This document shows positions 7,887 to 64,000 of a stretch of 64,000 nt of DNA, one piece after another. Source of the stretch: an uncultured Acholeplasmatales bacterium. GTDB taxonomy: Bacteria; Bacillota_I; Bacilli_A; Acholeplasmatales; Anaeroplasmataceae. A program made the translations under genes and the position numbers. Position 1 is the first letter of the stretch. Each line of letters starts with the position of its first letter. Where the stretch lies: assembly GCA_944323055.1 (NCBI GenBank), contig CALUQZ010000002.1:1-64000 (forward strand). The letters are read 5' to 3'. Under the pieces are notes generated by a model, which had not been told where the DNA came from, ran no database searches, and saw only the letters and a program-made list of their open reading frames with translations.

Positions 7887-7894
7887 ACTTAAGT

Positions 7895-8010
7895 CATGTG
7901 GGGAGCCAATTGGCTGAGAGGATTAAGAATCGACCCTTTGACCTGATCTAGGTAATGCTAGCGTAGGGAATGATATCCTTTTTAGCATTGTCCTAAACGG
8001 ACATTTTTTT
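7895..8010 (+). promoter_or_regulatory. TPP riboswitch (THI element) with terminator
   Basis: The conserved thi-box parts are all present: GGGGAGCC, GGCTGAGAGG, GACCCTTTGACCTGATC and GTAGGGAA. The terminator stem TGTCC/GGACA (7989-8003) with a T run follows. AATGCTA at 7954-7960, inside the aptamer 3' side, is complementary to TAGCATT at 7983-7989, which overlaps the foot of the terminator and would form the antiterminator when TPP is absent. It controls thiT, 20 nt downstream. Confidence 0.93.
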
Positions 8011-34065: not shown

Positions 34066-34340
34066 GTGTGCCGGGCATGGCATTAATCTAGTAGGTAAAA
34101 GTCCTATCACGGGTATTTACCGCCAAGTGTAGTGAACCCCAAGCTGTTAATAGTAATGTTAAGGGTGAAGGAAGGGGCTAACAAAATCTTCGAGCTTACG
34201 AACAGAAACTTGATATTAGGCTAAATGGTGGATAAGGTTGCAAAACAAACTGAAGTCCTAAAGGTAAACGTAAAACCAAGACAGTAAATCAAGAAGTTGT
34301 GAAGAATAAAGAGATTAATATCTTACCCCGGGAGGTCCTC
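34066..34340 (+). mobile_element. 5' remnant of a group IIC intron
   Basis: The sequence begins GTGTGCCGGGCATGG, the 5' end typical of group IIC introns such as that of Oceanobacillus iheyensis, and carries further conserved ribozyme pieces: GAACCCCAAGCTGTTA, GGCTAACA, GCTTACGAACAGAAACTTGA, ATGGTGGATAAGGTTGC, AAGTCC and finally CTTACCCCGGGAGGTCC, which marks the end of domain III. No reverse-transcriptase/maturase frame and no domain V follow; normal promoter sequence starts ~95 nt later. It is therefore a 5' fragment. Its position directly behind a terminator hairpin matches the known target preference of class C introns. Confidence 0.85.
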
Positions 34341-45836: not shown

Positions 45837-45872
45837 TAACATTTTTAATTTTTTTAAAAAATGGAGGAATTT

Positions 45873-48800
45873 ATGGAAAACAATAAGCATACTTACACAC
45901 TAGGCCTTGATATAGGGACAAATTCTATAGGTTGGGCAGTAATTGATGAATCCTACAACCTTGTAAAAAAATTAAAACATTCGCTTTGGGGAGTTAGAAT
46001 GTTTGATAAATCTGATGCTGCGGCCGAAAGACGCACCTATCGTAACGCTAGACGTAGATTAAAAAGAAGAAAAGAAAGACTAAATTACTTACAAGATATT
46101 TTTGCTGACGAAGTTAAAAAAACAGACCCGTATTTTTTTAAACGTTTAAATGAATCTTTTTATCAGCTAGAAGATAGAAGTCTAAAATGTAATGATTTAT
46201 TTGTTAATGGACTAACTAATGCCGAGTATTATAAAAAATTCCCTACTATTTGGCATTTAAGAAAATATTTATTAGAGTCTAATGAAAAAGTTGATGTTAG
46301 ATTTTTATATTTAGCATGTCATCACATTCTAAAGTATCGTGGTAACTTTTTAACTGAGGGTGAATTTAAAAAAGGTGATAATTCTGATCTACTAACTGCT
46401 TTTAATGATATTAATAATGTTATAGACGATTTATACAATAAATTTAATAATGATGAAGAATTTGAAGGAAATGTAAATTTTTTCATTTCTAAAATTATTG
46501 ATAATAAACTATGCGATGAAATTGTTAATATATTAAGTTCTAAAATGACTAAAATGGATAAAAGAAAGCAATTAGAGGAAAAATTAACAGTTTGTGATGG
46601 TGATAAGATTATTAAAGAAACAGCATATAATAAATTTATTATACCATTATTACTTGAATATTCTGTTAACCCTAAATCTTTAAAAATTGTTAAAGAAAAA
46701 GGGATAAATCATGATGATACTGATTTAACAAAACTTAATTTAACAGATGAAGATTTAGATACAAAATTATTACAATATAGTAATGAATATTATGAAATAA
46801 AAGAATTAATTGGTTCAGTAACTCTAATAAAACTAATTAAAGATCACTGTTTTTTACTTAATTTTTTAGGTAATAAAACATATTTATCAGAAGCGATGGT
46901 TGAAAAGTATAATGAACATAATGAGCAATTACGTGAATTTAAAGTGTTCATTAAAAACTATTTACCAAATAAATATTTTGAAATATTTAGAACATATAAT
47001 GATAAGATTTGTAATTATGCACATTATGTCGGAAGAAATCATGTTAATTCTAGTCGAGTAAAAGACAAAATAACTAATTTTAGTCACTGTAAACAAGATG
47101 ATTTTTATACTTATGTTAAAAAACTACTTGAAAATGTAACTCAAGACGAAGCTCAAGAATCTAAAAAGTATTTTTTAGATTTAATTGAAAATAAAGAATT
47201 TTTAGTACGAACTAACTCAAGTAATAATGCAGCTTTCCCAATGCAACTTCATTTAATGGAACTAAAACAAATTTTAAGTATTCAATCAAAATATTATCCA
47301 TTTTTAAATGAATTAAGTTATAACTTAACTAACATAGAAAAAATCATTAAAATCTTTATGTTTAAACGCCCATATTATTTTGGCCCTTTAAACGATAAAT
47401 CTGATTATGCTTGGGTAATAAGAAATAGTTATGATAAAGTTACGCCATGGAATGTTGATAAAGTTATTAATACTGATGAAACAGCAAAAAAATTCATTGA
47501 AAAAATGCAAAATAAGTGTACTTATTTAAAAGGCGACAATGATTATTGCTTACCTAAAAATTCAATAATTTTTCAAAAATATAATGTTTTAAGTTATATA
47601 AATAAAATTAAAATAAATGGGAAAAATATTGATAATGAAACTAAATTAGATATTTATAACAATGTTTTTTTAGTTGAAAGTAAACCTACACAAAAAATGA
47701 TTAAAAATTATTTAGTTATAACTAAAAATATTAAAGAATCAGATATTTCAGGTATTGATGTATGTAACTGTAGTATGGCTAGTTATATAACTTTTAAAAA
47801 TATTTTCAAAGATAAATTTAATGAACTTTTAACTAGAAAAGGTAATAATATTGAGGATATAATAAAAGACATAACTGTTTTTGAAGATAAAAAAATACTA
47901 GAAAAAAGATTAAAAGAAATTTATAAATTAAATTCAGAAGAAATAAAGCAGATTAAAAATTTATCATATAACAAATATGGTAGATTGTGTAAAAAATTAT
48001 TAATAGATTTAATTTTTGTTGATAAGGAGACTAACGTTAAATATCATGGTATATTAGATATTATGGAAAAAACAACTTTAAACCTACAGGAAATATTATT
48101 TTCACCTATTTTTGAAGGTAATAAAGTTATTGATGAATATAATAAACAACATACAATATCTAATGAGATGAAGATCGAAGATTTTATAGAAGAAAATTTA
48201 ACTGTATCTCCTATATATACTAGAGCTTTAGTTCAAACTTATCGTTTAATTGAGGAATTAGAAAATAAAATATTAAAACAAAAAATAGACTATTTTGTAG
48301 TTGAGTGTACTAGAGAAAACCAAGCATCTAATACAACTAAGTCTAGATATGAAAAAGTAAAAGAATTATTAGCAGAATGTAAAAAGATGACTTCTGAAAA
48401 TAATATGTTTAATGACATTCCATTTGATGAATTAAATAGACAATTAGATGAAAATAAAGATAATATGAAGGCAGATAAGTTATACTTATACTTTACTCAA
48501 CTTGGTAGAGACATGTACACCTACAAACCAATTGATATTAATGAAATTAATAACAATAAAGAGTATGATATTGATCATATATTACCGCAATCTTTAATTA
48601 AAGACGATTCTATTTCAAATCGTGTATTAGTTAATAAAAGACTAAATCATAATAAATCAGATAAATTTATTTTTGAATCTATTGATGTTAGTAAGAATAT
48701 TCCATTCTATAAAATGTTATTAGATAAAGAACTAATATCAAAGAAAAAATATAATTTATTAACGATGAAAGAATTAGATGAAAAAGAACTTGAAGGATTT

Positions 48801-50156
48801 GTAAATCGTCAAAAAGTAGCAACAGACCAATCTGTAAAAGCCGTAATTACAATGCTTAAATTGTTTAAAAACGTAGATTCAGAACATATTATATATTCAA
48901 AAGCTAATATAGTGTCAGAATTTAGAAGAAATGAATTCTTATATGATAAAGAAGATCCTTTAACAGGTGAATTAAAACCTAGAGTTACTGATAGTTCAGG
49001 TAACAATTTAAAACATATTTATTATAAATCTAGAACTGCCAATAATTATCATCATGCTCATGATGCCTATTTAAATGCTATTATCGGAAGTGCATTAACT
49101 GCCTATTATGATAAAATAAGTATAGGATTTAAGAGTAGTGATGAAAGAAAAGAGTATTTAGAAGGCAATTATATTACTAGAAATCCTATGAAAGTATTAG
49201 CAAGAAGAATAAGCGGAACCCCATGGGATCCTAAAGTAATGCTACCAAAAATTGAAAAGAACTTATTTAATAACTATGATATTCAAGAAACATTACGAAC
49301 TTATAAATCTAATGAAATGATTAGTCAAGTAACAATTATACCTAAAGGTACTGGTAATCCAGTTAAAGTTAAAAATATAATGCCTAATGGAGAACCGTAT
49401 AATACAGAAAAATATGGTGGATTTAAACAAACTTCATATTCTAAATTTGTTTTACTTAAGACAGTTGATAAAAAGAATAACGAGCTAGTTATTTTACAAG
49501 CTATTCCTAAAATGTATGAAGACACATTAGATGAATATTTAGGAAAATTGTATGGTGAGTTTAATATTATAAAAGATAATATTAATATCAATACAGTTTT
49601 AGAATATGGTAAAACAAAGGCTTATTTAACAGGTGTGACTGGTAATTCATACTTATTTAAAAATGCCATAGATCGTAATTTTGATGTTAATTCAATTAGA
49701 ATCATACATGATATCGATAAGTATTATAGTATACCTGAAAAAGAGAGAGATAAACAAATTAAATTTATAAATGATAAAGTAATAATATCAGATGTTAAAA
49801 ATCAAAGACAAATATCTATTTCTTTAGATGACCTAGATTACCTATATCAAAAAATCTATGAAATGTATAGAAAGGATATCTATTCATTTTCTAACATTAA
49901 AAATATTTATTCTAGTCTGCCAAATGTTTTAGATGATAAATTTAAACATGATGATTACAAAACAAAATTATATTTAATAAATCAATTATTATCTTTACTT
50001 AAGACAAATGAAAGAAAAACAGCTGATTTAACATCTATAGGGTTATCTAAAAGTTCTGGTACATTATTATATAATATAAAGTTGGCCAAAGGAATGAAAC
50101 TAGTTAACTATTCTATTACAGGATTTAAGAAAAAAGTTTTATATGAGGTTAAATAG
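45873..50156 (+). CDS. cas9: CRISPR-associated endonuclease Cas9 (type II-A)
   Basis: 1427 residues from ATG 45873 (GGAGG 5 nt upstream; an in-frame ATG 12 nt earlier overlaps that site). RuvC-I has LGLDIGTNSIGWAV with Asp13; an Arg-rich bridge helix AAERRTYRNARRRLKRRKER follows; a large helical recognition lobe; RuvC-II with Glu811 in VVECTREN; HNH with YDIDHILPQS (His902) and Asn925; RuvC-III with HHAHDAYLNA (His1061, Asp1064). All catalytic residues are present. The C-terminal PAM-interacting domain starts after GFKQTSYSKFVLL and ends in YSITGFKKKVLYEVK; it lacks an Arg pair like that of S. pyogenes Cas9. Slightly longer than the 1368-residue S. pyogenes protein. The stop overlaps cas1. 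Confidence 0.98.
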   Translation: MENNKHTYTLGLDIGTNSIGWAVIDESYNLVKKLKHSLWGVRMFDKSDAAAERRTYRNARRRLKRRKERLNYLQDIFADEVKKTDPYFFKRLNESFYQLEDRSLKCNDLFVNGLTNAEYYKKFPTIWHLRKYLLESNEKVDVRFLYLACHHILKYRGNFLTEGEFKKGDNSDLLTAFNDINNVIDDLYNKFNNDEEFEGNVNFFISKIIDNKLCDEIVNILSSKMTKMDKRKQLEEKLTVCDGDKIIKETAYNKFIIPLLLEYSVNPKSLKIVKEKGINHDDTDLTKLNLTDEDLDTKLLQYSNEYYEIKELIGSVTLIKLIKDHCFLLNFLGNKTYLSEAMVEKYNEHNEQLREFKVFIKNYLPNKYFEIFRTYNDKICNYAHYVGRNHVNSSRVKDKITNFSHCKQDDFYTYVKKLLENVTQDEAQESKKYFLDLIENKEFLVRTNSSNNAAFPMQLHLMELKQILSIQSKYYPFLNELSYNLTNIEKIIKIFMFKRPYYFGPLNDKSDYAWVIRNSYDKVTPWNVDKVINTDETAKKFIEKMQNKCTYLKGDNDYCLPKNSIIFQKYNVLSYINKIKINGKNIDNETKLDIYNNVFLVESKPTQKMIKNYLVITKNIKESDISGIDVCNCSMASYITFKNIFKDKFNELLTRKGNNIEDIIKDITVFEDKKILEKRLKEIYKLNSEEIKQIKNLSYNKYGRLCKKLLIDLIFVDKETNVKYHGILDIMEKTTLNLQEILFSPIFEGNKVIDEYNKQHTISNEMKIEDFIEENLTVSPIYTRALVQTYRLIEELENKILKQKIDYFVVECTRENQASNTTKSRYEKVKELLAECKKMTSENNMFNDIPFDELNRQLDENKDNMKADKLYLYFTQLGRDMYTYKPIDINEINNNKEYDIDHILPQSLIKDDSISNRVLVNKRLNHNKSDKFIFESIDVSKNIPFYKMLLDKELISKKKYNLLTMKELDEKELEGFVNRQKVATDQSVKAVITMLKLFKNVDSEHIIYSKANIVSEFRRNEFLYDKEDPLTGELKPRVTDSSGNNLKHIYYKSRTANNYHHAHDAYLNAIIGSALTAYYDKISIGFKSSDERKEYLEGNYITRNPMKVLARRISGTPWDPKVMLPKIEKNLFNNYDIQETLRTYKSNEMISQVTIIPKGTGNPVKVKNIMPNGEPYNTEKYGGFKQTSYSKFVLLKTVDKKNNELVILQAIPKMYEDTLDEYLGKLYGEFNIIKDNININTVLEYGKTKAYLTGVTGNSYLFKNAIDRNFDVNSIRIIHDIDKYYSIPEKERDKQIKFINDKVIISDVKNQRQISISLDDLDYLYQKIYEMYRKDIYSFSNIKNIYSSLPNVLDDKFKHDDYKTKLYLINQLLSLLKTNERKTADLTSIGLSKSSGTLLYNIKLAKGMKLVNYSITGFKKKVLYEVK

Positions 50157-51025
50157 TGGCGTTTAGAAATGTTATAATTGTTTCTCGTTGCAAATTAGAC
50201 TATTCCTTAAATTATTTAGTAATACATAAAGGGGTAGATGTTAAAAAGATATTGTTAGATGAAATAAGAGTTATATGTTTAAATACTACACAAGTTAGTA
50301 TTACGACAGCCTTAATTTCAGAGTGTCTAAAAAAGAAGATTAAGATAATTTTATCTGATGAAAAGCATAATCCAGTTGGTGAAATAACGCCATACTATAA
50401 CAATTATTATGCATATCGCAAATTAAAAGAACAAATTAATTTTTCTGATGATGTAAAAGATTATTTATGGCAACAACTTATAAAAAATAAGATTTATAAT
50501 CAATATTTAAATTTAAAAGAGGCATCTTTAGAAGAATGTAATATATTAGCCAAATATATTGATGAAGTAACATTAGGTGATAATCTTAATAGAGAAGGAA
50601 TAGCCGCTAAAGTATATTTTAAAAGTCTATTTGGACCAGGATTTAATAGAGACTTAGTGTGCCCTGAAAATATATTTTTAGATTATGGCTATTCCATAAT
50701 CTTATCATCAATCAACAGGTTAGTTAAAATGTATGGGTATTATACAGAAATAGGTATTCATCATATAGGAGAAAGTAATTCTTTTAACTTATCATGTGAT
50801 TTAATGGAACCTTTAAGACCATTAGTTGATAGATATGTAATTAATGGTTATGTTAATTTAGATAATTATAAAGAAGAGTATGTTAAGATGTTAGAATTAA
50901 AAGTTAAATATGACAATAAGAGAACATTTTTAGATAACGCTTTAGAAGAGTATGTAGAAGATATTTTAGCTTATTTAAAAACGGAAGATAAGACAAAGAT
51001 AAAATTTATAGAATATGAGTTATAG
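50156..51025 (+). CDS. cas1: CRISPR integrase Cas1 (type II)
   Basis: 289 residues, GTG start overlapping the cas9 stop by 1 nt. Metal-binding residues are Glu147 (NREGIAAKVYF), His203 (GIHHIGESNSF) and Glu218 (CDLMEPLRPLVD). The N-terminus MAFRNVIIVSRCKLDY is typical of type II Cas1. With Cas2 it inserts new spacers at the leader-repeat junction. Confidence 0.97.
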   Translation: MAFRNVIIVSRCKLDYSLNYLVIHKGVDVKKILLDEIRVICLNTTQVSITTALISECLKKKIKIILSDEKHNPVGEITPYYNNYYAYRKLKEQINFSDDVKDYLWQQLIKNKIYNQYLNLKEASLEECNILAKYIDEVTLGDNLNREGIAAKVYFKSLFGPGFNRDLVCPENIFLDYGYSIILSSINRLVKMYGYYTEIGIHHIGESNSFNLSCDLMEPLRPLVDRYVINGYVNLDNYKEEYVKMLELKVKYDNKRTFLDNALEEYVEDILAYLKTEDKTKIKFIEYEL

Positions 51026-51335
51026 GTATATGCGTACAATACTATTCTTTGATTTACCAACATTGACATCAAAAAATAGAAGGGATTATCGTACTTTTGT
51101 AAAATTATTAATCAAAAACGGGTTTTATCGTATACAAGAATCAGTATTTGTTAAGATGTCAATTAATCCTCAAGCTGCTGAAATTTGTACTAAATTTATA
51201 GATAAAAACAAACCACCAGAAGGTAGTGTTATTATCCTAACGATAACTGAAAAACAATTTGCAAATATGAATATATTGTTAGGAGAATTAAATACAGATG
51301 TTGAAGTATCTGATAAGAGGGTTATTGTTATATGA
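51015..51335 (+). CDS. cas2: CRISPR-associated protein Cas2
   Basis: 106 residues with the ferredoxin-like core: MRTILFFDLPTLTSKNRRDY containing the conserved Asp, GFYRIQESVFVKM, and a C-terminal ITEKQFANMNILLGE segment. It overlaps cas1 by 11 nt and csn2 by 4 nt. Structural partner of Cas1 in spacer integration. Confidence 0.95.
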   Translation: MSYRYMRTILFFDLPTLTSKNRRDYRTFVKLLIKNGFYRIQESVFVKMSINPQAAEICTKFIDKNKPPEGSVIILTITEKQFANMNILLGELNTDVEVSDKRVIVI

Positions 51336-51961
51336 TAAATTTAATATATTTAAATGAAAATATTAGTTTAAAATATGGAATAAATTCTTTAATATTTGAA
51401 AATCCGGCTACTTTTAGAGATATTTATTACAACACTTTAGAGAATATAAAAATATTAGATGGAGTAAATGAATGTACAGCTTCAAAGTTAATAATTATTA
51501 AAGATCTATTAAATCTTTCTATAAATGATAAAAAGAATTTAACATATTTATTTAAATTATCTAATATTGTTTTAAAAGAAAAATATGAATCTGAATATCT
51601 TAATATTATTATGAATCTAAAAGAATTATTATCTAATTTAACAGATTTTATAGATTTAAATATTGAGTTCGATGAAGTAGATACTTCAAAGTTATTTCAA
51701 GCTTTCAATTTAAAATACTCTGATGAAAATTTAAATTATATTGAAAATGTTCTTTCATACATATCAATTATAAATGCAATTAATTCACCAAAATTATTTA
51801 TTACATTTAATTTAATGAATTATATAACTGAAGAAGAATATAAATTATTAGAAAAAGAATTATTAATAAAACAGATCATCGTATTAGATATTTCATTAAA
51901 TTTAATAAAGAATTTTAGTGATAATATATTTAATGTTGATGACAATTATTGTATAATATAA
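51332..51961 (+). CDS. csn2: Csn2-like adaptation protein (type II-A)
   Basis: 209 residues. Position (after cas2, before the leader), size and the C-terminal pattern LFITFNLMNYITEEEYKLLEKE followed by a hydrophobic strand IIVLDIS match Csn2, the ring-shaped DNA-end-binding protein needed for spacer acquisition. The Walker-like Gly-rich loop is not obvious, as in other Csn2 proteins. It makes the locus type II-A. The array promoter -10 box lies inside its 3' end. Confidence 0.85.
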   Translation: MINLIYLNENISLKYGINSLIFENPATFRDIYYNTLENIKILDGVNECTASKLIIIKDLLNLSINDKKNLTYLFKLSNIVLKEKYESEYLNIIMNLKELLSNLTDFIDLNIEFDEVDTSKLFQAFNLKYSDENLNYIENVLSYISIINAINSPKLFITFNLMNYITEEEYKLLEKELLIKQIIVLDISLNLIKNFSDNIFNVDDNYCII

Positions 51962-52012
51962 TTGATTATTAGCAAATTTATGAATTTCATGCAAGCCACT
52001 AGAATGCTAGAG
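51952..52012 (+). promoter_or_regulatory. CRISPR leader with putative array promoter
   Basis: TATAAT at 51952-51957 (weak -35) would start transcription near 51964, only ~49 nt before the first repeat. TATTAGCAAA at 51967-51976 is complementary to repeat segment TTTGCTAATA and identical to the tracrRNA anti-repeat core. The leader ends GCTAGAG directly before repeat 1. Confidence 0.6.
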
Positions 52013-53884
52013 GTTTGCGTGGTTTGCTAATACGTATAATTACTCAACTTAAGAGGGGTTTAAAAAAATGAAAGATTTGTTTGCGTGGTTTGCTAATACG
52101 TATAATTACTCAACTTGCCCTATTGAACTTGCAACACCATTAAGTTTGCGTGGTTTGCTAATACGTATAATTACTCAACTTTTAATAAAAAAACAGAGCT
52201 AAAAAAGCCGTTTGCGTGGTTTGCTAATACGTATAATTACTCAACATAATCTAGTACAGTAATAATATAATATAAGTTTGCGTGGTTTGCTAATACGTAT
52301 AATTACTCAACCAAGATACCTGGGAAGACATCGAGATGACAGTTTGCGTGGTTTGCTAATACGTATAATTACTCAACTTTAATTCATAGCCAAAATCTGT
52401 AAAAGCTGTTTGCGTGGTTTGCTAATACGTATAATTACTCAACTTAATCAAATGAGTTTTGAAAAAACTTGGGTTTGCGTGGTTTGCTAATACGTATAAT
52501 TACTCAACTAGTTGCTGATAAGACCAAATATAAAGATGTTTGCGTGGTTTGCTAATACGTATAATTACTCAACTGTAGCAACAGGTGGAACTTCAACGGC
52601 AGGTTTGCGTGGTTTGCTAATACGTATAATTACTCAACCTATTGAAGTTTATTTCAACGAAAAGCCTGTTTGCGTGGTTTGCTAATACGTATAATTACTC
52701 AACATTCGCAAGTAGAGCCGAAAAGAAAGCATGTTTGCGTGGTTTGCTAATACGTATAATTACTCAACTAAATAAACTACTTGATTAGGGTTTACAAGTT
52801 TGCGTGGTTTGCTAATACGTATAATTACTCAACTTACATCGTGTTAAATTCTTACTTAATCTGTTTGCGTGGTTTGCTAATACGTATAATTACTCAACAT
52901 ATAGCTAATACATTAGCAACTAAGTCAGTTTGCGTGGTTTGCTAATACGTATAATTACTCAACAGTGAACCTGTTCTTAGACAGTCTGGTACGTTTGCGT
53001 GGTTTGCTAATACGTATAATTACTCAACAGGATTATATTGATTATGAAACGAAACTGAAGTTTGCGTGGTTTGCTAATACGTATAATTACTCAACCCAAA
53101 CCTAGCACAATGAGGCCTTGAGTGGTTTGCGTGGTTTGCTAATACGTATAATTACTCAACTAAAAGAATATTCAATTAATTATTCATATTGTTTGCGTGG
53201 TTTGCTAATACGTATAATTACTCAACTTTTGCAATTTGAAACGTGGGCTGATTATGGTTTGCGTGGTTTGCTAATACGTATAATTACTCAACGCGCTACT
53301 CCTTAGTAGCCATCTCAAGTTGTTTGCGTGGTTTGCTAATACGTATAATTACTCAACGTAGTAGTGTGACAATTGGTGGTCAGCCAGGTTTGCGTGGTTT
53401 GCTAATACGTATAATTACTCAACCACTATAAAAATCATCTCGTTCCATTAATAGTTTGCGTGGTTTGCTAATACGTATAATTACTCAACAGGCCTTAGCA
53501 GAAAGCGCAAGCAAGCTAGGTTTGCGTGGTTTGCTAATACATATAATTACTCAACAACTGTTTTATTGTTGTTCTGGTTAGTATTGTTTGCGTGGTTTGC
53601 TAATACGTATAATTACTCAACAAAGTCTAAAACTTCACGATTTATACAAGAGTTTGCGTGGTTTGCTAATACGTATAATTACTCAACTAGTGATTTTAAG
53701 TTATTTCTTTTACGTTGTTTGCGTGGTTTGCTAATACGTATAATTACTCAACACGGAAAATGTATAAAACGTTCAATCCAAAGTTTGCATGGTTTGCTAA
53801 TACAGTTTATTACTAAACATAGTGTCGTCCCTAACACTATAATCTTCAGTTTGCGTAGTTTGCTAGTATGTATTATTAATTATT
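52013..53884 (+). CRISPR. Type II-A CRISPR array, 29 repeats and 28 spacers
   Basis: The 36-nt repeat begins GTTTGCGTGGTTTGCTAATA and ends CGTATAATTACTCAAC; spacers are 29-31 nt, giving a ~66 nt period. Repeats 1-23 are identical by eye. Repeat 24 (53520-53555) has G22A; repeat 28 (53783-53818) has several changes; repeat 29 (53849-53884) is heavily degenerate. Decay at the right end plus the leader and csn2 on the left place the youngest spacers at the left. tracrRNA pairing also requires + strand transcription. Each repeat carries a TATAAT at positions 23-28. Several spacers read like phage coding sequence, but no target was identified. Confidence 0.99.
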
Positions 53885-53942
53885 ATTAATACTTGAAGTA
53901 TAGATTGTGTTATATACTTTCTATACTATTTTTTTATGTATC

Positions 53943-59270: not shown

Positions 59271-60920
59271 ATGATAATTACTATCAATGGTAATAAACAA
59301 GAGTATAAGAAACCTTTAAAACTTCAAGATTTATTACCAGCAAATGAAAAAAAGCAGTATCAAGCTGCTAAAGTAAATAATAGAATAAGAGAACTTGATT
59401 ACATTGTAAAAGATGATGCTGTAGTTGAATTTTTAGATTTAACTGATCAAGATGCTTGTCGTATCTATCAATCTACTTTGCGTTATCTAATAGTTATGGC
59501 TGTAAAACAAATATTCCCTAAAAGTAGAGTAATCTTTAATTACAGTATTTCACGTTCTATATTTGCTAATATTACTAATTTAAATCGGATATTCACCAAA
59601 GCTGATTTAAAACAAATCGAAAGTAAATTAGATGAATTAATCGAGGCTGATTTACCAATTATTCGTAAGAGTATAACAAAAGAAGAAGCTGAAAAGTATT
59701 ATGAATCACAGGGATATTATGACAAAGTAAATGTTTTAAAATATCGACCAGAAGATACAGTACACATTTATGAATGTGGTGATTACAAAAATTATATGTT
59801 CGGATATATGTTACCATCTACTGGTTATATAAAAGACTATATTTTAAGACTATATACGCCAGGCTTTTTAATACAATATCCACGGTCTGAAACTAATGGT
59901 AAAATACCTAAGTTTGAGGATGCTCCTGTCTTTACAAACGCCTTAAGAGAAGCTAATAATTGGGGAAACATAATAGAAGCAAGCTATATTTCTCAAATGA
60001 ATCAAATTGTTGAAAAACATGAAGCATTAGAATTTATAAATGTTTGTGAAACTAAGCATAATAATATGCTAGCTGAATTAGGCGAAACAATTAAGAAAAA
60101 TATTGATGATATTAAATTAATAGCTATTGCTGGCCCGTCTTCAAGTGGTAAAACAACCTTCACTAATAGGCTTAGAATTGAGCTTATGAGCCGTGGTATT
60201 AAGCCTTTAATGATATCTATTGATGATTATTATTTAGGCATTGATAATGCTCCAAAAGATGAAGAAGGAAAGCCTGATTTAGAACATATAGATGCCTTAG
60301 ATCGAGATTTATTTAATGAACATATGTATCGTTTAATTGCTGGAGAAGAAGTAACATTACCACATTTTGACTTTGAAACTTCATCAAGAAAAGAAGGTAG
60401 AAAAGTTAAACTAGCTAAAAATCAACCAATTATGATTGAAGGAATTCATGCTTTAAATGATGATTTAACACCATCAATTCCTTCACATCAAAAGTATAGA
60501 ATTTATATTGCTCCACAAGCCCAAATGCATATAGATGATCAAAATCCAATAAGCATTTCTGATATAAGATTAATTAGAAGAATGGTTAGAGATCATAATT
60601 ATAGAAACTATAATTGTGAAAAGACTCTAGCTATTTGGCCATCTGTAAGAAGAGGAGAATTTAGGTGGATTTATCCTCATCAAGAAAAGGCTGATTATGT
60701 ATTTAATAGTGAGTTAACATATGAGTTATGTGTAATGAAAAAATATGCTTTACCACTACTTGAAGAAATAAAACCCGATAGTCCAAATTACATTACAGCT
60801 AATCGATTAGTGAAGTTTTTAAAGTATTTTAAAGATATTCAAGATCGTTGGGTTCCTTGTAATTCTTTATTACGAGAATTTATTGGTGACTCTATTTTCT
60901 ACACCGATGATAAAAATTAA
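59271..60920 (+). CDS. TGS-domain uridine kinase-like nucleoside kinase
   Basis: 549 residues. N-terminal TGS-like domain (residues ~1-62, INGNKQEYKKPLKLQDLLP), a threonyl-tRNA-synthetase-like second domain (~65-240), then a phosphoribulokinase/uridine kinase P-loop domain: AIAGPSSSGKTTFTNRL, SIDDYYLG, LPHFDFETSSRKEG and IMIEGIHALND. This fused architecture is widespread in Firmicutes and annotated as nucleoside kinase. Proposed substrate uridine/cytidine. GGAAGG precedes the start; a terminator follows. Confidence 0.88.
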   Translation: MIITINGNKQEYKKPLKLQDLLPANEKKQYQAAKVNNRIRELDYIVKDDAVVEFLDLTDQDACRIYQSTLRYLIVMAVKQIFPKSRVIFNYSISRSIFANITNLNRIFTKADLKQIESKLDELIEADLPIIRKSITKEEAEKYYESQGYYDKVNVLKYRPEDTVHIYECGDYKNYMFGYMLPSTGYIKDYILRLYTPGFLIQYPRSETNGKIPKFEDAPVFTNALREANNWGNIIEASYISQMNQIVEKHEALEFINVCETKHNNMLAELGETIKKNIDDIKLIAIAGPSSSGKTTFTNRLRIELMSRGIKPLMISIDDYYLGIDNAPKDEEGKPDLEHIDALDRDLFNEHMYRLIAGEEVTLPHFDFETSSRKEGRKVKLAKNQPIMIEGIHALNDDLTPSIPSHQKYRIYIAPQAQMHIDDQNPISISDIRLIRRMVRDHNYRNYNCEKTLAIWPSVRRGEFRWIYPHQEKADYVFNSELTYELCVMKKYALPLLEEIKPDSPNYITANRLVKFLKYFKDIQDRWVPCNSLLREFIGDSIFYTDDKN

Positions 60921-60964: not shown

Positions 60965-60995
60965 AATATACTCATTTTTTAAAAATGAATATATT
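60965..60995. promoter_or_regulatory. Large palindrome upstream of the Fic-like gene (candidate operator)
   Basis: 15-nt arms AATATACTCATTTTT / AAAAATGAATATATT with one mismatch around a single T. Related half-sites recur at 62329-62360 and 62393-62412. Confidence 0.55.
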
Positions 60996-61040
60996 GAAAG
61001 TTGTGCCAATATATAATATAATTAACATGAGGTGACATTA

Positions 61041-62147
61041 ATGAGCTGTCTAAAAAATATAGATAGATTACAAATAAGTAATACAACAATGATGAAATTA
61101 TTAAAATTATATGAATATAAAGGGAAAGACTATTACTATGAGAATATATTAAAAGGCACTTTATCACAAATAATAAAGCAAACTATAGAACGTGATAGCT
61201 TTTATTTAGCTAAAATAATGGATCTAAATATTACCAATAATAGAATAAAATTATTAATAAAAAAGGATTCAAACCCTAAAAATAATGATGAAACTATCTT
61301 AAAAAATATTAAAAATGTCTTTAAAATAGTAGCAGAAGAGTCCGATAAATTAGAACTAACCAATAACGAATTCTTAAGATTAGGTATAAGAATATATAGT
61401 GGGGTTGAAAATGTTAGATATGTAACAGAAAATTATACGGTAAAAGTTAATCTTTTAAATGAGAAAAAAACGGAATCTAGACGTAAAAAAATTGATGAAT
61501 TATTGTTAACATACATTAAATTATTAAATAGTAATGACTATGAATTAACTAATTTAGTTACGAATTTTTATATGGATTTTATAAATATAAAACCATTTAA
61601 TATCGGAAATGAAGTAGTTGGGTTAATGTTAATATACTTATTATTATTAAAAGAACAGTTTAAAATGTTTCACTATGTTTCATTTTTTGAGTTAATTTAT
61701 GAAAATTATGAGGAATTTAAATCATTAGTAAATAAAGCTAATTTTAATTATGAAGATGGTTATTCACAAACTGCACCACTAAATAATTTTATTATAGATA
61801 TTCTAATTGATGGTTATAATAAAGTAGATAAATTAGCAAGTGATACTAAATTTGATGGAAATATAATGAAAACCTATAATATCGAAAATACGATAATGAA
61901 ATTAGGTGAAGTATTTACAAAGGAAGATATCAGAGCAAAACATCCATATGTCAGTCTATCTACAATAGATAGAACATTAAAAAGAATGCGTGAAGAAAAT
62001 AAGATTCGACCACTTGGGGTAGGGCGTAGTGCATCCTGGGTTCGTATTTCAAATTACGAAAGATTTGATGCAGGAAATAGTAGACAAATGAGTTTATATG
62101 ATATCATTATGAATAATCAAGAAGAAGATGAGAAAGCTGAAAAGTAA
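61041..62147 (+). CDS. Fic-like fold protein with C-terminal winged helix, catalytic signature lost
   Basis: About 368 residues from ATG 61041, with GAGGTGAC upstream (a GTG 9 nt earlier is less likely). Residues ~150-200 resemble the Fic core, where VTNFYMDFINIKPFNIGNEVVG aligns by pattern with the F-x-x-IHPFxxGNGRxGR motif: catalytic His is Lys184 and GNGR is replaced by GNEV. Residues ~290-345 (TKEDIRAKHPYVSLSTIDRTLKRMREENKI) form a winged helix as in Fic-family C-termini. It may be a DNA-binding regulator derived from a Fic protein. The Fic relation is an inference from a short match. Confidence 0.5.
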   Translation: MSCLKNIDRLQISNTTMMKLLKLYEYKGKDYYYENILKGTLSQIIKQTIERDSFYLAKIMDLNITNNRIKLLIKKDSNPKNNDETILKNIKNVFKIVAEESDKLELTNNEFLRLGIRIYSGVENVRYVTENYTVKVNLLNEKKTESRRKKIDELLLTYIKLLNSNDYELTNLVTNFYMDFINIKPFNIGNEVVGLMLIYLLLLKEQFKMFHYVSFFELIYENYEEFKSLVNKANFNYEDGYSQTAPLNNFIIDILIDGYNKVDKLASDTKFDGNIMKTYNIENTIMKLGEVFTKEDIRAKHPYVSLSTIDRTLKRMREENKIRPLGVGRSASWVRISNYERFDAGNSRQMSLYDIIMNNQEEDEKAEK

Positions 62148-62161
62148 CTCATCTTTTTTTT
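62127..62161 (+). terminator. Terminator of the Fic-like gene
   Basis: GATGAG (62127-62132) pairs with CTCATC (62148-62153), followed by seven or more T; it overlaps the stop codon. Confidence 0.75.
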
Positions 62162-62328
62162 CGGAGTAAAACTAAAGACACCTCAAAGTATAAAAGAGAA
62201 GAAAAGAAGTGCGTGAATCGTAAACGAATAAAAAGTTTTATTTTTGTAGGTGAAATCGAGCGTTTGAGCTGTACAATTGTCTTGATTTTAACTTTTCGAT
62301 TCGTCATTTGAGTCAAAATCGGTAAGAA

Positions 62329-62360
62329 AACATACTCATTTTAAATGATATGAATATGTT
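62329..62360. promoter_or_regulatory. Inverted repeat related to the Fic-like gene palindrome, site 2
   Basis: AACATACTCAT (62329-62339) and ATGAATATGTT (62350-62360) match as inverted repeats at 10 of 11 positions; half-site TACTCAT/ATGAATA is shared with the palindrome at 60965. Confidence 0.4.
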
Positions 62361-62392
62361 TATGAAAGAAGTAATAGCAAAAAAAGTCAATA

Positions 62393-62412
62393 AATACACT
62401 CATGAATATATT
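62393..62412. promoter_or_regulatory. Inverted repeat related to the Fic-like gene palindrome, site 3
   Basis: AATACACTCA and TGAATATATT abut at 62393-62412 and match as inverted repeats at 8 of 10 positions; 48 bp left of dif. Confidence 0.35.
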
Positions 62413-62460
62413 AAGCCATTCTTTTCAAATCGATTTTTATCATTTTTAAATATTTAAATA

Positions 62461-62488
62461 ACTTCCTATAATATATATTATGTTAACC
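62461..62488 (+). other. dif: dif site (XerC/XerD chromosome dimer resolution site)
   Basis: 28 bp: left arm ACTTCCTATAA, centre TATATA, right arm TTATGTTAACC. This is nearly identical to the Bacillus/Firmicutes dif sequence as I recall it, and the right arm resembles the XerD half of E. coli dif (TTATGTTAAAT). The context (gene-free, convergent gene orientation) fits the replication terminus. Confidence 0.88.
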
Positions 62489-63650
62489 AATAAATTACTT
62501 AAGAATAATCTTATTATTTGATTTTTGTGGATAAGTGGAAAACTAAAATAATTTATGAAATCGCTATTTAGGCTTACTGCTTAATTTTTTTAGATTTTAA
62601 AAATCGAGTTCATGGATTGCCAATGAATCGACGATTCGTTTTTTCTGTGTAAACGCCTGTTTGATTAAAATATAAATATGTTTACACAAATTTTGGCAAT
62701 ATACATAATTATAGTAATCATTACACCTAGTTTTAAAAACTATATATTAAACGAAAATTTATACGTGTCACCCATTTAGGTTTTATAAAGATAATTATAT
62801 ATAAATACCTACACTTATTTGTTATAAATTAACTATAAATATATCATTTTTATCTATCTATTTTTCTTATTGCCAGACTATATCGACTCTATATTTTCAT
62901 GGTTTTTGAAGTTTGATTTCTTGTTTTCTACTAGTTTTTGATCTCTGTTTTTATCCTTTTTTATTCCTTAAAACACCTGGTTAAAAGATTAGTTTTGTTT
63001 ATAAAAATTAATAAACGAATTTTATTTTCATCAATTTTCATACTTTTTTCATACCTTTAAAATCATCTGGTTTTTATGCCTCAATCATTTAAATATCCGT
63101 GTTTATTTCTGATTTTAGCATTCCACTACACTATCTGCCATTTTAACTCATTTTTAGTTTATTAGCACTTTTTTGCTATAATTGCCAATCCCATTTATAT
63201 ATCCTACAATTTACTTTCCTTATACGGCAATTATTGAGGTTTTTAAGAAGCCTAAAAAAACTATTTTAAGACTGGCTTTAAAATCATATTATTGTTTTTA
63301 TTAATCGCTCTTCTTTTTATTGTTCTACTGTTTGCTAAATCGAGTTCCTTTATTTTGATTTTTTATTAACTCGATTTCTCTATTTAACTTAAATATTTAA
63401 GAATATATATTTATGCATATCCATATCTTCTCATTTAAAATTATTTTCTATATAAAAACTTTTATTATAATATTTTATACTCATATTCTTGACAAATAAT
63501 TAAAATAAGGGTTTTACCATTTAAATATATTCAAATTATCGATTTGACGAAACTATATATTTTATATTTTTTATAAATTCTTGTAAGTAAAATATTTATA
63601 TAAAATATAATTATATTAAATTAAACTTTACAAAATAAATTTAGTCTTCA

Positions 63651-63671
63651 ATCTAGTTTCTTAACCTAGAT
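63651..63671. repeat. 21-bp palindromic element, copy 3
   Basis: Begins ATCTAGTT and ends CCTAGAT; imperfect version of the element at 58995, followed by TTTTTT. Confidence 0.6.
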
Positions 63672-63694
63672 TTTTTATTTTAATTCATTCTTTA

Positions 63695-63715
63695 ATCTAG
63701 TATTAAAAACTAGAT
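63695..63715. repeat. 21-bp palindromic element, copy 4
   Basis: Arms ATCTAGT / ACTAGAT around a 7-nt centre; 44 bp after copy 3. Confidence 0.6.
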
Positions 63716-63739
63716 GGTGTTTGAAATATTTTTCTACGT

Positions 63740-63764
63740 AAAAAAACCAGCCCCTTAAGGCTGG
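63740..63764 (-). terminator. Terminator of the alcohol dehydrogenase gene
   Basis: On the - strand CCAGCC (63764-63759) and GGCTGG (63752-63747) form the stem, followed by a run of seven T (63746-63740). Confidence 0.85.
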
Positions 63765-63790
63765 CTAAATGCTTTGTATTTTTATCTGTT

Positions 63791-64000
63791 TTATTCGTAA
63801 CAATCATTTAATATTTCTAAACAACTATCATAATCTAATAAGAAAATATCATCAATTGTACGAGTTCGATTAAATGTATAAAGATTAGCTATTTCTTCTA
63901 AACTTTCTTTGGTAACATTTACTTCTGTTAGTGTAGTTGGCATACCTATTTCTTTAAAATAGTTTTTCATCATTTGAATAGCTGTTTTACTAGCATCTTC
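63791..64000 (-). CDS. Iron-containing alcohol dehydrogenase, C-terminal part (runs off the window)
   Basis: The last ~69 codons of a - strand gene; the frame is open to the window edge. The sequence KNYFKEIGMPTTLTEVNV, then SLEEIANLYTF and a final DYDSCLEILNDCYE, matches the C-terminus of butanol-dehydrogenase-type (BdhA/YqhD-like) Fe-ADHs, where FFKSIGMPTTL is highly conserved. Metal and NAD(P) sites lie outside the window. It is the only gene to the right of dif. Confidence 0.8.
   Translation of the reverse strand, partial: EDASKTAIQMMKNYFKEIGMPTTLTEVNVTKESLEEIANLYTFNRTRTIDDIFLLDYDSCLEILNDCYE

Follow-up and report, generated by a model that had tools for sequence, protein, structure and literature searches.

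A dif site at the replication terminus of an uncultured Anaeroplasmataceae bacterium forms the core of a conserved composite element with a Fic-fold protein as candidate accessory factor

The window analysed here, i.e. the 64,000 bp at positions 1–64000 of the 107,455-bp contig C2 (CALUQZ010000002.1) from the draft genome of an uncultured Acholeplasmatales bacterium (Anaeroplasmataceae), contains at 62461–62488 the only dif site of the chromosome, located at the replication terminus. The dif site itself is an ordinary member of its known kind, and it constitutes the core of a conserved element of ~220 bp that carries inverted repeats (dyads; Box 1 and Box 2) on the XerC side and, on the XerD side, a 9-mer of the DnaA-box type. 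Judged from the alignments, this composite element is almost certainly real. No description of it was found in the open-access literature, mostly at the level of titles and abstracts, and as far as this literature shows the composite site is undescribed. The best overall explanation, to which we assign a probability of roughly 60 %, is that p371, a Fic-fold protein encoded next to dif, binds the boxes and serves XerCD/dif as an accessory factor or organises the terminus. In the usual description, chromosomal dif consists of 28 bp that suffice by themselves, with XerCD and FtsK as the only requirements; it is plasmid Xer sites for which accessory sequences are known. If true, the proposed role of p371 would represent a second way of controlling chromosome dimer resolution, with accessory sites conserved across ~10 families, and would assign a function to a protein family that carries no annotation and whose enzyme fold is dead. 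The features concerned are the following:

62461–62488, + strand: dif ACTTCCTATAATATATATTATGTTAACC, composed of XerC arm ACTTCCTATAA, 6-bp centre TATATA and XerD arm TTATGTTAACC
62328–62361, no strand: Box 1, dyad AAACATACTCA-N12-TGAATATGTTT, starting 133 bp before dif
62392–62402, no strand: left half of Box 2, AAATACACTCA, starting 69 bp before dif
62526–62534, + strand: 9-mer TGTGGATAA, reverse complement of the DnaA box TTATCCACA, at +65 from dif
61032–62147, + strand: p371, predicted Fic-fold protein without catalytic motif and with C-terminal winged helix, candidate box binder
60967–60993, no strand: p371 promoter dyad TATACTCA-N11-TGAATATA, just upstream of the -35 box of p371

With the dif of Bacillus subtilis, which is confirmed by experiment (ACTTCCTAGAATATATATTATGTAAACT in PMC3025954), the 28-mer has 25 of 28 bases and the 11-6-11 layout in common. 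It occurs once at up to three mismatches in the 1,621,716-base genome (draft, 96 % complete), where chance would yield no such match (0 in 100 dinucleotide shuffles). Skews were computed over the full contig C2 and over 60 kb around the origin on contig C3. On contig C2, the cumulative GC skew rises to position 62377 and falls thereafter (maximum 84 bp from dif), and the cumulative AT skew peaks at 62418 (43 bp from dif). Gene direction on this contig (genes of at least 150 amino acids) converges at the site, with 42 of 48 genes to the left encoded on the + strand and 28 of 31 to the right on the - strand. The origin end is located on the separate contig C3, where dnaA and clustered TTATCCACA boxes are found and the GC skew reaches its minimum at 50792. 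A dif-like match is present in 54 of 60 relatives. The context is chromosomal, beside conserved housekeeping genes, and neither that of a plasmid nor that of a phage.

XerD is encoded 3.7 kb from dif (above the equivalog cut-off), and a second Xer protein (38 % identical, taken as XerC) on contig C8; a protein with an FtsK_gamma domain is likewise encoded in the genome. The XerS model matched the XerD neighbouring dif at 119.9 bits only, below its cut-off of 267, and the genome holds two Xer proteins. Copy number, skew, gene convergence, Xer and FtsK genes and the relatives thus all agree and bear out a first-pass annotation, made from the sequence alone, which had read the 28-mer as a near-canonical dif at the terminus with genes converging on it, had placed the skew extremum at ~62.47 kb, and had named a single copy and xer genes as marks of such a site and a plasmid or phage XerCD context as a mark against it. 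This interpretation was, however, incomplete, since it missed the larger element with its putatively accessory boxes at fixed positions. A search of named genomes with the single XerD protein yielded no matches, whereas the scan with the p371 alignment did. As a separate observation, the heptamer GAAGAAG is oriented toward dif in 46 copies on contig C2 and away from it in three, is the most skewed A4G3 heptamer there and represents a candidate FtsK-orienting motif resembling that of Lactococcus. All A4G3 heptamers together amount to 431 versus 107 on this contig, and the polarity of GAAGAAG is therefore in part general purine skew.

In relatives, Box 1 follows the consensus AAACATAYTCA-N11/12-TGARTATGTTT, its left half starting 131–135 bp before dif. 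Box 2 resembles Box 1 in weaker form and in most cases begins 67–69 bp before dif; its right half is degenerate in the present genus. Box 1 and Box 2 are spaced by ~65 bp, and again ~65 bp separate Box 2 from the dif centre. When 49 non-redundant loci were anchored on dif without gaps, the boxes appeared at fixed offsets. Box 1 scores of at least 15/22 were reached in 62 of 77 loci, as compared to 2.2 % of 989 control windows from the same loci, and Box 2 is kept at offset -69/-68 in 37 of 77 loci versus 4.7 % of control windows. A matrix trained on family f1 (f1, f2 etc. are labels of the genome search tool) and applied to held-out families ranked offset -135 first (z 6.3) and offset -69 second (z 5.5) among 1190 offsets; offset -135 also ranked first in each of f7, f9, f16, f23 and f24. 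With the same matrix, no box signal was found at these offsets in the dif-bearing families lacking p371 (f10, f13, f14, f15, f17, f20 and f22). In the present genome, the core of Box 1 is a single copy at up to one mismatch (gap 12).

On the XerD side, the 9-mer TGTGGATAA was looked for at 8/9 identity or better in 97 p371-bearing loci; it occurs at exactly +66 in 26 of them, at +65 in 6 and at +75 in 8, the mean per offset being 0.06. Of the 26 loci lacking p371, none has a copy close to dif. The copy beside dif is identical to the oriC boxes, TTATCCACA being clustered at C3:48.8–50.4 kb beside dnaA. The composite site, if it works as proposed below, thus prompts a testable question, namely what maintains a DnaA box at a distance of 38 bp from the site of recombination at the terminus.

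The candidate reader of the dyads, p371, has no match in Pfam or NCBIfam at default threshold and only a weak Fic match (E 0.017). Its AlphaFold2 model (predicted local distance difference test score, pLDDT, 85.8) shows a C-terminal winged helix, and the best solved structure retrieved by Foldseek is the Fic protein 8uqu (template modelling score 0.88, normalized by target). Predicted fold and domain order are the same as in Fic proteins with C-terminal winged helix (PDB 8uqu, 3eqx); unlike these, p371 lacks the catalytic motif HPFxxGNGRxxR. In alignment A2, the p371 rows no longer contain the motif in the form HPFx(D/E)GNGRxxR, whereas distant homologues (L121–L123) and paralogues retain HPFxDGNGRxSR. 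Predicted fold and motif loss together identify p371 as a Fic-derived winged-helix protein that is catalytically dead. The genome contains exactly two good dyads, one beside dif and the other in the p371 promoter, where it is a single copy at up to one mismatch (gap 11). The promoter dyad also occurs in other genomes of genus g1 and in those of genus g3; it is seen mainly in these two, because none was found upstream of p371 in families f2–f5.

Paralogues with Fic and winged-helix domains (L140–L143, L225–L244) possess an intact catalytic motif in the four that were read (L140–L143). Many of them carry promoter dyads of an overall size similar to that of Box 1; several have either TTTAGTCA-N12-TGACTAAA, which is close to Box 1, or TATTCCCTTA...TAAGGGAATA, which sits around the -10 box. 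These promoter dyads suggest that proteins of the Fic/winged-helix family recognise dyads with a wide spacing and that the family is autoregulatory.

The dif neighbourhood comprises, in addition to p371, the following genes:

59271–60920, + strand: uridine-kinase-like gene (PF00485), conserved neighbour of p371 by synteny
63791–64000, - strand: 3' end of an iron-containing alcohol dehydrogenase gene
C2:64969–66147, outside the window: deoB, following the alcohol dehydrogenase gene
C2:66144–67067, outside the window: xerD, following deoB

Most relatives share one arrangement with constant orientation: uridine-kinase-like gene, p371, dif, (alcohol dehydrogenase), deoB and xerD. Down to ~30 % identity, most loci have p371 on the 5' side of dif and oriented alike, and p371 and dif lie together in several further families as well. 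In families f3, f16 and f24, p371 is located far from dif; the boxes stay beside dif although p371 is unlinked. Most p371 homologues that share this arrangement around dif derive from assemblies labelled Acholeplasmatales, Anaeroplasmataceae or Anaeroplasma, with Anaeroplasma bactoclasticum ATCC 27112 among them; NCBI taxonomy places the Anaeroplasmataceae in Mycoplasmatota. The clade with the composite site appears, from the loci compared, to comprise Anaeroplasmataceae/Acholeplasmatales plus several sister families of Bacilli. Four of the 60 relatives lack p371 (G004 and G005 of the same genus, G010 and G016), and all four jointly lack a dif match and the XerD orthologue, too; these are draft genomes, in each of which one contig may be missing or the three may really have been lost together.

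The gap between long open reading frames around dif (62148–63790) measures 1,643 bp, is exceeded within the 107-kb contig only by the array of clustered regularly interspaced short palindromic repeats (CRISPR), and is bordered on the right by the alcohol dehydrogenase gene. Within it, dif is placed off-centre, 313 bp from the left and ~1.3 kb from the right gene. The gap shrinks to 0.5–0.9 kb in relatives of other genera (G022, G024 and G026) and is, within the genus, mostly unconserved beyond the region around dif. For these two reasons the gene desert was rejected as a meaningful element: the ~1.6-kb desert pointed out in the first-pass annotation does exist, and is incidental.

Taken together, the following mechanism is proposed. 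XerC, on the left arm, and XerD, on the right arm, would recombine dif and thereby resolve chromosome dimers at the terminus. p371 would bind Box 1, Box 2 and the dyad in its own promoter, which it would regulate. Bound as two dimers at a distance of about six helical turns, p371 would impose a shape on the DNA to the XerC side of dif, much as ArgR, PepA or ArcA do at the plasmid sites cer and psi (PMC5357621), and could serve as an accessory or architectural factor that wraps, aligns or helps to pair two dif copies, marks the terminus, or times or licenses XerCD recombination. DnaA or another reader of DnaA boxes possibly binds on the XerD side, as the conserved 9-mer would allow. That p371 is the binder of the boxes is probable, because families without p371 lack the box signal, because the only two good dyads of the genome lie beside dif and in the p371 promoter, because p371 and dif are syntenic, because the four relatives without p371 are also without dif match and XerD orthologue, and because the promoter dyads of the paralogues set a precedent within the protein family. 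An accessory role of box-bound p371 in XerCD/dif recombination is put forward more tentatively, the odds being judged somewhat below even. More speculative still is the notion of a Bacilli clade with chromosomal, accessory-controlled Xer recombination, in which a dead Fic protein and possibly DnaA, at phased positions within a ~220-bp site, might control when and where dimers are resolved and might link replication control to termination.

Several observations weigh against assigning p371 this role. The co-occurrence of p371 and boxes partly follows phylogeny, and the joint absence of p371, dif and XerD from four drafts could reflect missing contigs. In the families f2–f5 examined, p371 directly follows the uridine kinase gene and no box was seen just upstream of it. 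Families f12 and f19 (L154–L157, L164–L168, L205–L214) possess p371 and have no boxes at the usual offsets, and Box 2 is only weakly kept in the very genus studied here. Among the paralogue promoters, 8 out of 24, and no more, exceed the 95 % control for dyad strength. Finally, the offset tests were designed after the pattern had been noticed in f1, so that only the held-out families are independent.

The main mechanistic alternative is a replication fork trap, in which box-bound p371 would stop forks near dif as a functional analogue of the replication terminator protein (RTP) and its ter sites. In B. subtilis the RTP gene is likewise located near dif, and imperfect inverted repeats of ~30 bp make up the ter sites (PMC13220808). 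A winged helix is present in p371, too, the gene of which adjoins dif, and the skew peak of the present genome falls between Box 1 and Box 2. Yet both boxes lie on one side of dif and are each symmetric, unlike polar sites flanking a terminus, and the body of p371 adopts the Fic fold rather than that of RTP (no separate search for an RTP gene was made). Skew peaks, compared in 10-kb windows, do not decide the matter: they are not systematically nearer to dif where p371 is present, and in G082 and G236, both lacking p371, they fall within 100 bp. In most f3 genomes, the peak in such windows is found 1.1–1.3 kb to the right of dif, where some have a rightward gene. Given the one-sided, symmetric layout, we regard a fork trap as unlikely, while giving it more weight than any other alternative.

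According to a second alternative, the site is an ordinary dif and nothing more, the flanking boxes being regulatory DNA of no relation to it or remnants inherited from a common ancestor. In other bacteria, dif works with XerCD and FtsK alone (PMC5357621), and in f12, f19 and all families lacking p371 it occurs without boxes. Against this reading stand boxes that hold within the genus where all other desert sequence has decayed to background level, an offset that stays fixed across families differing in surrounding sequence and genes, and Box 1 scores far above those of control windows in the same loci; this explanation is accordingly given a small chance.

The boxes could also be additional, arm-type binding sites of XerC or XerD; in favour of this, AAACATANT, the half-site, is similar to GTTAACATAAT, the XerD arm when inverted. 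Box and dif arms, however, vary independently: in genus g6 the box reads AAACTACMTCA with dif unchanged, whereas in genus g5 the XerC arm has changed and the boxes have not. In addition, the conserved TCA/TGA is absent from dif, and the same dyad recurs in the p371 promoter. Binding of XerC or XerD to the boxes is on account of this independent evolution quite improbable and was rejected. Least credible are RNA hairpins of a transcript crossing dif, suggested by the stem-loop shape with 11-bp arms and a 12-base loop and rejected since pairing between the Box 1 halves (0.735) equals the shuffled expectation (0.735), this lack of covariation favouring a DNA-binding dyad, and since no Rfam family matches in the desert.

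Compared to known systems, the site shares with XerCD/dif of B. subtilis (CodV/RipX) the 28-bp 11-6-11 site, the location at the terminus and the two recombinases. It differs in that XerD and p371 are encoded within a few kb of dif and in the dyads and the DnaA-box 9-mer at fixed distances; no such accessory sites were found described for B. subtilis dif, the flank of which was not examined by name. With the plasmid sites cer (ColE1) and psi (pSC101) it has in common an Xer core with adjacent, here putative, accessory sequences in non-coding DNA, and the feature typical of these sites, conserved accessory sites beside the core at fixed spacing, is found here. The accessory sequences of cer lie within a ~280-bp non-coding region, and the DNA-binding proteins that occupy the accessory sequences of cer/psi (ArgR, PepA and ArcA) are regulators or enzymes by origin (PMC5357621). 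Unlike cer and psi, the present site is chromosomal, its candidate protein is a predicted dead Fic protein with winged helix, and its centre measures 6 bp (8 bp in cer). XerS/difSL of streptococci and lactococci resembles it in the recombinase gene located close to its own dif and in a polar motif of the GAAGAAG type, but employs one recombinase and a 31-bp site instead of two recombinases and a canonical 28-bp dif. RTP/ter of B. subtilis is similar in the winged-helix protein encoded near dif and the ~30-bp inverted-repeat sites, and dissimilar in that the p371 body has a different fold and the boxes are one-sided and symmetric.

Among relatives, dif itself shows some variation. In the Anaeroplasma-like genus g5 (L092 10021; L065, L066, L086, L088, L090, L097–L101), the XerC arm is changed to AGTTATCATAA, which renders dif more palindromic, and the XerD arm and the boxes are kept; from the sequences compared, coevolution of XerC and dif is a possible cause. 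XerD arms in f12 and f19 are often altered (TTAAAT, AAAGT). The genome G086 (family f20) harbours six dif-like matches, two of them perfect to the pattern, and these extra sites possibly represent XerCD-dependent elements or duplicated dif.

Further features were noted in the window. Open reading frames resembling those of Cas9, Cas1, Cas2 and Csn2 (named from sequence) are located together with a repeat array at 45861–53900; the Cas9/array block lies 8.5–16.6 kb from dif, in good accord with the distance of ~9–17 kb from the terminus given for the CRISPR locus in the first-pass annotation. A match to group II intron domains D1–D4 (RF02001, 105 bits) was detected at 34147–34319, with no obvious long intron-encoded open reading frame beside it. 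At 7889–7985, a thiamine pyrophosphate (TPP) riboswitch is located upstream of a gene for a small membrane protein resembling ThiT-type thiamine transporters.
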